37,561 nucleotides of DNA, from assembly GCA_031284065.1 (NCBI GenBank), contig JAITAP010000014.1:1-37561 (forward strand), given 5' to 3'. The translations under genes were made by a program, and so were the position numbers. The notes under the pieces are model-generated. The model was not told the origin of the DNA, did not search any database, and saw only the letters and a list, made by a program, of their open reading frames with translations. The stretch comes from Prevotellaceae bacterium (GTDB taxonomy: Bacteria; Bacteroidota; Bacteroidia; Bacteroidales; UBA932). Positions 2,943-37,283 of the stretch are shown here, piece by piece. Within the stretch, counting starts at the first letter, position 1, and every line of letters starts with the position of its first letter.

Positions 2943-4986
2943 AAAGCGTGATTTTCAGCTGGAGCTTTACGTCGGTGCGGTGGTTGGCGTTGATTTGCGT
3001 TGCGTCGCTTCCGACAACGTCGCGGTCGTAGTAGTAGGTTTGCGCACAGCGCAGCCATACGTCCAGCCTGTCCAGCGGCTGCCAGTGCAGGTTGACGTAC
3101 CAGCGCGAGCCTTGCCCGTAGTATGCAGGCACGGAGAAAGCGTAGAGCACGTCGCTCTCGTAGGCGTACATGCGCGAGGCGTAGCTGTCGGCGCCGAAGA
3201 TGGCGTAGCGTAGCGATACGGACAAAGGCAGCTGCCGAAGCTTGTACTGAGCATCCTGAAAAACCAGCACGCCCCGCTCGCGCTCCTGCGTGCCCGCCTT
3301 GTACAGCGCAACCTCTGCGTGCGTTTCGCAGTCAAGCCCTGCCAGTAGCGAGTAGGTAATGTTGTAGCGCAGGTTTATTTTTTCTACCGCATCGGTTGTT
3401 TTTGTCGGTATCAGCTCGTCGGCAACATTCTCCTCCTTTGTGTCGTAGCGCAAGCGCAGGGACATTTTGCAAAGCGGCTGCGGCGTGTAGTCGGTTTGGA
3501 GCAAAAAATCAAAACCTTTCGAGGGAGCCATCGCCTTGTACCGCAGCCACGCAAAAGTGTATGCGTCAAAGTACAGCGTAGTCTTTACCTTGGGGTGCGG
3601 AAAAATATTTGCGCCAATGTAAAACCCGTTTTCGTTTGCCGTTTTCCCGCTTTCGGCAAAAGCGGCGGCGTAGTATGCCTGATACTGGGGTTGGTAGTAG
3701 CGGTGCAGGAGCGCCAGCTGCATGCGCGGCGCAATATCGGCCAGACACCCGTTGAGAGCGGCAAGCCCACCGTTTTGGCTCACGCCAAATTCACCGAACA
3801 AGTATGTTTTTTTGATAAACCAGCGATAATCTGCGCTAAGGTTGGCGTTTTCGTTTTTATTCAGCTCGTAGTAGCTGTACGGGTGCACGTTTCGCTGGTA
3901 CGACCCGCCAAGCTTGTGCCACAAGCCGGTTACGCCAATTCGCAACTTTGTCATCCTGTAGGACACGTTGGCTCCCGCCGCCATTTCGCTCACCGCGTCT
4001 TTCTCCCCCATTGCTTTTGGCGTGGCGTGGAGCCCTGAGGTTTGCAGCGTAGAGAAAACGCCGAGCGTATCGGCGTTGGCGTCAACATCTTTGTAGGAGA
4101 AAAATGCCGTAGCCGTAACCGTTTTGGAGACGTTTACGCTTGCCGCCGCGCCCCGAAAAAATAAATTTTCGTTCGCTCCGCTGTACGCCGCCACGCCGTT
4201 GCCGCGCTTGGCTATGCTGAAAGCGTCGCTTGATTTTCCCATCGTCCCGCCTTTCCAAAGCGACAACCCCTGCCCAAACTGCGCGTAAAAATCGCCCAGC
4301 ACCAGCGTGCGCAGAGCGCCGGTGTTGGCTACCTGCAAGTGCCCCGAGTAAAAATCAAATCCGGCTTCGTTGCCGCTCTTGCCGAAAGGCTCGCCCGCAT
4401 CCTTGTCCGCCGTAACCCCCCATTGCAGCTTGTTGCTGAAAGTATAGCGGTAGCGAGCGTACAGGGCTTGCTTGCTGCCCAGGTAGTAGCCGTTTTTGTA
4501 CCCCGCTTGCTCCTCTGCCGTCTGCATGGCGCGCGCCAAGAGCAGGTGTTGCCCCTTTGTGAGCATTTGCCGCAGCGAAGGCTTTTGCAGGTCTTCGCCC
4601 GGAAGCGTTGCAACAAAAGGCAGCAACTTCATCATCATCTCCTGCGTAATGCCGTGCACGTATTGCAGCTCGTAGGGCGTTTGCATTTCGCCGTTCTGCG
4701 CAATGTATTCGCGTATGCTTGCCGCCTGAAATTCGTTGAGCACGCACAGCCGCAGCAGCTCCGCTTCGCTTGCCGTATTCAGGTTTAGCGGGTTGGCGGC
4801 GTAGCTTGTGAGTTGCTCGTACATCACCTCGAGCGTAACGTCGGCGTCTTCCAGCGTAGAGGCTTCCTCCACGATGCTTTCGATGGCTTTTTGCACCGTA
4901 ACGGCTTGCGAAAACGCAGGCGCTGCGCAAGCCGCTGCCATAGTTAGGGAGATGGCAGCACGTAGCGTGTGAGCGTGGCGTTTCAT
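2941..4986 (-). CDS. Secreted helix-hairpin-helix (ComEA-like) protein with probable C-terminal outer-membrane beta-barrel
   Basis: 681 aa; signal peptide; NLNTASEAELLRLCVLNEFQAASIREYIAQNGEMQTPYELQYVHGITQEMMMKLLPF (tandem HhH); long aromatic-rich amphipathic beta C-terminus. Confidence 0.82.
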   Translation of the reverse strand: MKRHAHTLRAAISLTMAAACAAPAFSQAVTVQKAIESIVEEASTLEDADVTLEVMYEQLTSYAANPLNLNTASEAELLRLCVLNEFQAASIREYIAQNGEMQTPYELQYVHGITQEMMMKLLPFVATLPGEDLQKPSLRQMLTKGQHLLLARAMQTAEEQAGYKNGYYLGSKQALYARYRYTFSNKLQWGVTADKDAGEPFGKSGNEAGFDFYSGHLQVANTGALRTLVLGDFYAQFGQGLSLWKGGTMGKSSDAFSIAKRGNGVAAYSGANENLFFRGAAASVNVSKTVTATAFFSYKDVDANADTLGVFSTLQTSGLHATPKAMGEKDAVSEMAAGANVSYRMTKLRIGVTGLWHKLGGSYQRNVHPYSYYELNKNENANLSADYRWFIKKTYLFGEFGVSQNGGLAALNGCLADIAPRMQLALLHRYYQPQYQAYYAAAFAESGKTANENGFYIGANIFPHPKVKTTLYFDAYTFAWLRYKAMAPSKGFDFLLQTDYTPQPLCKMSLRLRYDTKEENVADELIPTKTTDAVEKINLRYNITYSLLAGLDCETHAEVALYKAGTQERERGVLVFQDAQYKLRQLPLSVSLRYAIFGADSYASRMYAYESDVLYAFSVPAYYGQGSRWYVNLHWQPLDRLDVWLRCAQTYYYDRDVVGSDATQINANHRTDVKLQLKITL

Positions 4987-6795: not shown

Positions 6796-7011
6796 ACCCC
6801 GAAAAACATTTGCAAAAGCTGAATAAGGAAATAAGGGAGAATGTATCGGGGGGTGAAATTGCTGCTACTAAGGGGGCTTTTGATGACGCTACGAAGGGGG
6901 CTTTTGGGAACCCTTATTTTTCCAAAGTTCCCTTAGTAGAGCAGGGCAAAGAGCATACGTCCCGCTACCCTTATTACCTTATTGTCAAATCAGCATTTAG
7001 CTCAGAACGCT

Positions 7012-12800: not shown

Positions 12801-12975
12801 AATGTTTCATTAAGCAGCGGCAAAGTTACGGAAAAGTCCCGCTCCGGCGTCAGCTGCCCCGAAAAATTTTGCGCTGTTGAGGTGGCTTTGTTGCTTGAAT
12901 TAGGTGGAAGAGAGGCTTTATAGCACACGCCCTTTGGCGAAAAAAACAACCAATTTTACAGCCTGAAATTTATAG

Positions 12976-36639: not shown

Positions 36640-37075
36640 GCGCGGCGTTCGCGCCATCCCGTTAGGGATGGAACGCTCGGTAGAAAACCATCCCCACCAC
36701 CAAACCCGACAGTCCGTAGGAATGCCTCCGAAATATTTTTGGACACATTCCTAACGGAATGTGTTGCGCCGAGAAGATTGCCCTTTTCTACCGAGCGGTT
36801 CATCCCTACGGAATGAAAGACGCAAGCGACCTGCCACACCTTGCTCCCGGACCTCACCCCCGACCCCTCTCCAAAGGAGAGGGGAGGCTTGCGCCGAACA
36901 TCGCGCCCCGCCGCGCATCGCGCCCCACCCCACCCGTCATTCCGACCGGAGCGCGCAAGGCACGCGCGCGCGCAGCGGAGGAACCTCCCGCCATTTTTGC
37001 CATATAACGGCAACAAGGGTGGGTGGTAAGGTGGGAGGTTCCTCGCTACGCTCCGAATGACGGCGGGAGGGAACG
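36640..37075. repeat. Mosaic of several dispersed intergenic repeat families
   Basis: GCGCCATCCCGTTAGGGATGGAACGCTCGGTAGAAAA, ACACATTCCTAACGGAATGTGT, TTTTCTACCGAGCGGTTCATCCC, CCCCGACCCCTCTCCAAAGGAGAGGGGAGGC and CGTCATTCCGACCGGAGCGC...; most recur at 6.7, 12.0 or 14.5 kb. Confidence 0.8.
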
Positions 37076-37103: not shown

Positions 37104-37283
37104 AACCTCATTTCCACCTCATTTCTTTAACAAAACAACCTCAGTAGCAATGGCATGAAAATCTCTCCCACAACCTCATTACCTCATTACAAAGCGATTG
37201 AATGAGGTAATGAGGTTGGCAGGTATGTACGTATTTCTGCTACTGAGGTTGTTTTGTTGTTTGAATGAGGTGGAAATGAGGTT
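37104..37283. repeat. 180-bp nested inverted repeat with three perfect stems
   Basis: Stem 1: 37104-37123/37264-37283 (20 bp). Stem 2: 37129-37149/37238-37258 (21 bp). Stem 3: 37172-37188/37201-37217 (17 bp). Internal loops 5/5 and 22/20 nt; 12-nt apical loop. Confidence 0.95.

Follow-up and report, generated by a model that had tools for sequence, protein, structure and literature searches.

REPINs are hairpin-forming doublets of REP sequences whose movement depends on RAYT transposases (Bertels and Rainey 2011, PMC3116915). In TIRtrons (TIRYT), a Y1 gene is enclosed by long terminal inverted repeats, and some of these repeats have multiplied as dimers (Di Nocera et al. 2013, PMC3733652). 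In the portion of Quentin et al. (2018, PMC6006769) on which we draw, most known TIRYTs belong to subclass 2.1, in which the protein carries a helix-turn-helix at its C-terminus and the repeats contain GGGGWSAS. The same portion describes TnpA-Y1 subclass 1.2 as 'generally without typical terminal IS200 secondary structure features' and reports no repeat family for it. Here we describe a 180-bp palindrome at positions 37104-37283 of the window, meaning the whole 37,561-nucleotide stretch of DNA that was analysed. It is very probably a non-autonomous, REPIN-like miniature transposon derived from a Y1/HUH transposon, and it shows on which DNA a hitherto orphan group of Y1 transposases may act.

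The palindrome is a nested inverted repeat made of two convergent arms. As the first-pass annotation had claimed, the outer stem is exactly 20 bp long (37104-37123 / 37264-37283) and the middle stem exactly 21 bp (37129-37149 / 37238-37258); the inner stem, given there as 17 bp, is really 18 bp (37171-37188 / 37201-37218, with the 17-bp core at 37172-37188 / 37201-37217). The left arm (37104..37188, plus strand, 85 nt) reads AACCTCATTTCCACCTCATT, a spacer, the core AACAAAACAACCTCAGTAGC, 22 variable nucleotides and AACCTCATTACCTCATT, and matches our arm model R1 with 69.1 bits (E 1e-20). The right arm (37201..37283, minus strand, 83 nt) is the opposite-strand version of this unit (63.8 bits, E 5e-19). 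Between the arms lies a 12-nt loop (37189..37200), at the position that a Y1 transposase gene of ~450 nt occupies in autonomous relatives. Conservation is highest in the 20-mer AACAAAACAACCTCAGTAGC (37129..37148 in the left arm, plus strand; 37239..37258 in the right arm, minus strand), in which A40-G44 is invariant among the 50 arms of alignment A2, and which contains a GTAG tetranucleotide, as in REP sequences. Each arm carries ACCTCATT four times in mirrored orientation, as had been noted before, and in addition a fifth variant, ACCTCAGT. The non-pairing loops of the earlier description are indeed present, but they are variable spacers within a repeated arm unit of ~85 nt, whose consensus runs from AACCTCATTnnCACCTMATT through a short spacer, the core AACAAAACAACCTCAGTAGC and ~20-25 variable nucleotides to AACCTCATTACCTCATT.

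The 180-bp element folds far more stably than expected from its composition. Its DNA folding energy is -62.6 kcal/mol compared to -17.0 (sd 3.3) for shuffled sequences (z -13.9), its RNA folding energy is -102.7 (z -14.8), and none of 200 shuffles folds as well. Single arms have no fold of their own: for four arms, analysed on both strands with DNA parameters, z lies between -0.3 and 0.9. The ~85-nt arm is nevertheless a discrete unit that is also found alone, and the outer and inner ends of solitary arms are constant and match those of paired arms. The stems owe their near-perfect pairing to the fact that each arm is a copy of the same family sequence. The selection or recent fold-back that the first-pass annotation had read from the stems is therefore not needed, and when arms were compared within a genome, those of one copy were no more alike than those of different copies, so that co-variation indicative of structural selection was not seen.

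Searching the genome and its relatives for further copies, as had been recommended, gave 77 query matches in the window's own genome (G000; 2.49 Mb, 280 contigs), corresponding to at least ~39 separate places after strand merging, and matches in 18 of the 61 genomes searched, including all but one of ten congeners. Many of the G000 copies lie at contig ends, as a repeat that breaks assembly would be expected to do. With an arm-only profile, we counted 71 arms in G000, at least 150 in each of G004, G007 and G010 and zero in G003; most congeners carry 12 to over 150 arms of the same family. Copies end exactly at AACCTCATT...AATGAGGTT and their flanks are unrelated. This identical structure, with identical boundaries, recurs across many contigs and genomes, which disposes of an assembly artefact, one of the two outcomes by which the first-pass annotation would have been refuted. 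The species collection contains at least 113 stretches that match the 20-mer AACAAARCAACCTCAGTAGC, and their carriers include Prevotellaceae, Dysgonamonadaceae, Tannerella, Paludibacter, Odoribacteraceae, Ca. Symbiothrix, Planctomycetaceae and Cloacimonadota. Nearly all of the carrier bins look termite-gut derived, as read from their isolate codes, and we found no literature on these repeats in termite bacteria. The planctomycete placement of three carriers (L106, L180 and L181) is supported by DUF1559 proteins beside the copies, as such proteins are a hallmark of planctomycetes.

The arms are arranged as 51 convergent pairs, 59 single arms and 7 divergent pairs, counts that are biased by the fetching of loci through an exact-core search; opposite-strand pairs are thus convergent in 51 of 58 cases. 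The placement of the units is intergenic, with only 4 of 68 unit centres falling inside ORFs of at least 100 aa, compared to 79% of random positions. The best arms of doublets score higher than those of singlets (81.9 versus 66.6 bits, p 1e-6), although the arm profile was built from the same data and somewhat favours doublets. In several genomes flanking sequence has been amplified along with the element and, given these co-amplified flanks, part of the spread may have occurred by segmental duplication. Species-specific outer flanks are co-amplified at copies in G001, G004, G008 and G010 (L051-L088), an example being GCACGCTTCGCGCCGCCCC in G008. Copies differ in position between congeners. 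At one site, G010 carries a composite of ~290 bp with divergent arms (L108:6827-7113) that G004 and G009 lack at the orthologous position; its ends run into AT-rich simple sequence, where no single-base boundary can be assigned. This one presence/absence polymorphism thus concerns a related composite with divergent arms and blurred ends.

The parent was found by asking which Y1 genes sit near arms. Two Y1_Tnp genes of the genus abut arms, one decayed and with both arms (L212), the other with one full arm and a truncated right arm (L218), and a Y1 (HUH) transposase of about 145-150 aa adjoins arms in twelve relatives. According to a protein search with L218 as the query, followed by an arm scan of the loci, all twelve proteins have at least 73% identity to the query; nine have a convergent arm on either side (L220, L224, L251-L255, L259 and L276, with broken genes at L224 and L259) and three an arm on one side only (L219, L250 and L256). 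No CCTCATT-type arms were found at ~40 Y1 proteins with less than 50% identity. Arm-flanked transposases occur in G004 (L218:1486-1938), and among the other carriers are Paludibacter, Dysgonamonadaceae and Planctomycetaceae bins. The reading frame begins after the inner motif of the left arm, and its stop codon overlaps that of the right arm. In Paludibacter (L197, gene at 4128-4580), for example, the whole element of ~630 bp consists of an arm, an ATG ~12 nt further on, 150 codons and the right arm, with the TAA stop inside the inner motif of the latter. Y1_Tnp is the sole domain found by Pfam (62 bits, residues 6-119 of 150); HxH, Y115 and Q119..HH are invariant across 13 proteins, and a dN/dS of about 0.04-0.13 indicates that the transposase is under purifying selection. 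A PDB sequence search gave zero matches, and an AlphaFold model of one transposase, made without an alignment, has a pLDDT of 54, too low for use. In the window's own bin, which is 87% complete, we did not find a transposase of the parent clade (best identity 30%); the gene may have been lost or may be missing from the assembly. A Y1/RAYT-like gene of 202-205 aa in that bin (L049, G000:C175) was rejected as the parent. It carries its own short REP array, CCGCAGGTCAGCGACCTGCGG, which is unrelated to the present arms.

Sister transposases with 58-67% identity have the same arm layout with other letters, namely CCTTATT (L221, L222, L282, L283 and L285), CCTTCTT (L223) or CCCTTATT (L257, L258 and L277). 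In the tree, the CCTCATT group forms a clade of 10 rows (support 100/97) and the CCCTTATT group a separate one (92/99), so the arm letters follow the transposase tree. Each of these two clades holds one Planctomycetaceae bin among Bacteroidales (L255 and L258, the latter with stop codons). More distant Y1 genes (40-46% identity) have ordinary hairpin repeats with GTAG-like tags alongside (L225 and L226). The long-arm type thus looks derived: it would have kept the GTAG tag, while the hairpin of each unit would have given way to pairing between arms.

As in REPINs, two inverted repeats and a spacer form a hairpin here, the doublets are dispersed, intergenic, favoured and better conserved than singlets, the same repeats flank a Y1 transposase in relatives, and GTAG is present in each unit. 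The arms differ from REPs in being ~85 nt rather than 20-60 nt long and in having no palindromic core of their own; moreover, the transposase gene sits inside the inverted-repeat frame as part of one compact unit, and transposase and arms are found in more than one phylum. The Y1 gene between long inverted repeats, and the occurrence of these repeats as a dispersed family of singles, dimers and groups, recall TIRtrons. Unlike in most known TIRtrons, the protein is ~148 aa long, with a Y---Q--HH signature and Y1_Tnp as the sole domain found, and the repeats have CCTCATT motifs and GTAG, with no GGGGWSAS in the arm consensus. With IS200/IS605 and their MITEs/PATEs the element shares a Y1 HUH transposase with a single catalytic tyrosine and the lack of a target-site duplication, but long, mutually complementary arms take the place of a subterminal hairpin at either end. 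Its protein scores 50.9 with the NCBIfam IS200 model, under the cut-off of 55, and no TnpB was seen. By length and signature motifs, the transposase looks like TnpA-Y1 subclass 1.2: when set against the table in the part of PMC6006769 used here, it agrees in its ~148 aa, in [DE]H[VI]H, WQ and Y---Q--HH, in low copy number, in its occurrence in Bacteroidetes and in the absence of IS200-type end hairpins. It departs from that subclass, as presented there, in having a defined cognate DNA and in having members in Planctomycetaceae bins as well.

Taken as a derivative of such a transposon, the palindrome would be what is left of the ~630-bp element once its transposase gene was lost, namely the two ~85-nt ends with a ~12-nt loop between them. 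The arms would pair into a long hairpin while the DNA is transiently single-stranded, probably on the lagging strand. Since a single arm has no fold of its own on either strand, recognition would proceed through arm-to-arm pairing or through repeated linear motifs, and the Y1 transposase would probably recognise the arms by their CCTCATT repeats and by the core that bears GTAG. A single tyrosine would nick the strand at the presumed cleavage sites, and the element would be excised and then reinserted, mostly between genes, with no target-site duplication. From the analogy to IS200/IS605 and REP-RAYT systems (PMC6006769, PMC3116915), we infer that this amounts to the cutting and rejoining of one single strand exposed at replication. 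With both arms and the 12-nt loop retained, the 180-bp form would depend on mobilisation in trans. A broader proposal, which we offer tentatively and rate at somewhat below an even chance, is that a Y1 clade related to subclass 1.2 recognises paired long, distant arms (or repeated linear motifs) rather than a hairpin at each end, and that the autonomous element and its non-autonomous partner move between phyla in the termite gut.

Long terminal inverted repeats, many copies and sharp ends would also suit a classical MITE that a DDE transposase mobilises in double-stranded form. However, the suggested check for target-site duplications found none above shuffled pairs in 85 unique copies, although a DDE-type MITE would have one of fixed length; the gene between the arms is Y1/HUH rather than DDE, and an all-against-all comparison of the ORFs near 113 pattern loci yielded no linked gene that recurs across hosts. 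We therefore regard this origin as highly improbable. Of the roles listed in the first-pass annotation, a MITE comes closest, in that the element is mobile, non-autonomous and dispersed and has a known parent; it is not a classical DDE-type MITE, since it lacks a target-site duplication and the parent is Y1/HUH. Errors of repair or replication, such as template switching or fold-back, might instead have made the palindromes without transposition of a unit, and the coexistence of solitary, convergent and divergent arms, as well as copies inside other palindromes (L016 and L157), could be read in this way. Yet the arms of one copy resemble each other no more than they resemble arms elsewhere, solitary arms have constant inner and outer ends, and arm letters track the transposase clade, which makes such an origin very unlikely.

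It is also unlikely, if less markedly so, that a formerly mobile repeat has been domesticated for a host function, as a terminator, an mRNA 3' stabiliser or a protein-binding site. The very stable RNA fold, the intergenic placement and the near-perfect stems would agree with such a role, but the orientation of neighbouring gene pairs is shifted only mildly (11 convergent, 11 divergent and 32 tandem at copies; 47, 57 and 257 in the background), copy positions vary between congeners, many solitary arms are unable to fold, and the family has spread across phyla along with an intact transposase. The structured RNA of the first-pass annotation is likewise unsupported, as copies are dispersed and intergenic and Rfam gave no match on the 180-bp element. 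Its other two suggestions, an iteron-type replication site and an Xer site, find no support in dispersed, intergenic copies either. Mirrored ACCTCATT motifs are compatible with an iteron array for replication or partition or with an Xer-like site for site-specific recombination, but tens to over 150 arms per genome, lying between genes, contradict it; there were zero matches in viral contigs (searched with the exact 20-mer) and in plasmid and phage collections, and a transposase gene is located between the arms. We find this reading scarcely credible.

A REPIN-like derivative of a Y1/HUH transposon matters in part for what it says about its transposase. As far as the portion of PMC6006769 used here describes it, subclass 1.2 had no typical terminal structures and its DNA substrate was open until now; a clade with the subclass 1.2 signature now has a clear, repeated cognate DNA. 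Because intact elements, deletion derivatives and single arms exist side by side, and the arm letters of sister elements change with the protein, recognition and cleavage are directly testable. The element type is common to at least two phyla, in bins whose apparent source is a single kind of animal gut, and much of the stock of palindromes between genes in these genomes is explained by the family.

The window contains further repeats. A decayed solitary arm of the same family lies at 12864..12915 on the minus strand (arm model R1, 23.8 bits, E 1.4e-6). At 6820-6983 there is a relic of a sister arm family (AACCCTTATT / CCCTTAGTAG / CCCTTATT) with two divergent arms: one at 6907..6983 on the plus strand (AACCCTTATT..CCCTTAGTAGA..CCCTTATTACCTTATT), with the same letters as the arms at L257, L258 and L277, where the transposases of this family are found, and just upstream of it an opposite-strand arm at ~6820-6877 (minus strand). 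An inverted doublet at 36655-36815 (CCCGTTAGGGATGGAACGCTCGGTAGAAAA / TTTTCTACCGAGCGGTTCATCCCTACGG) is like the GTAG-type REP array beside the L226 Y1 gene. Another palindromic intergenic repeat, CCGTCATTCC...GAATGACGG, occupies 36930-37063, and in G002 (L016) single arms of the present family lie in the loop of a similar palindrome. Finally, a 72-bp tandem array at 37308-37561 matches Rfam Acido-Lenti-1 (RF01687). Within this array, the paired GTAGGGCAACGCCCTACG / GCCCTGAAAGGGC hairpins resemble the REP array beside the L049 Y1 gene, suggesting that the Rfam 'sRNA' Acido-Lenti-1 may be a REP.
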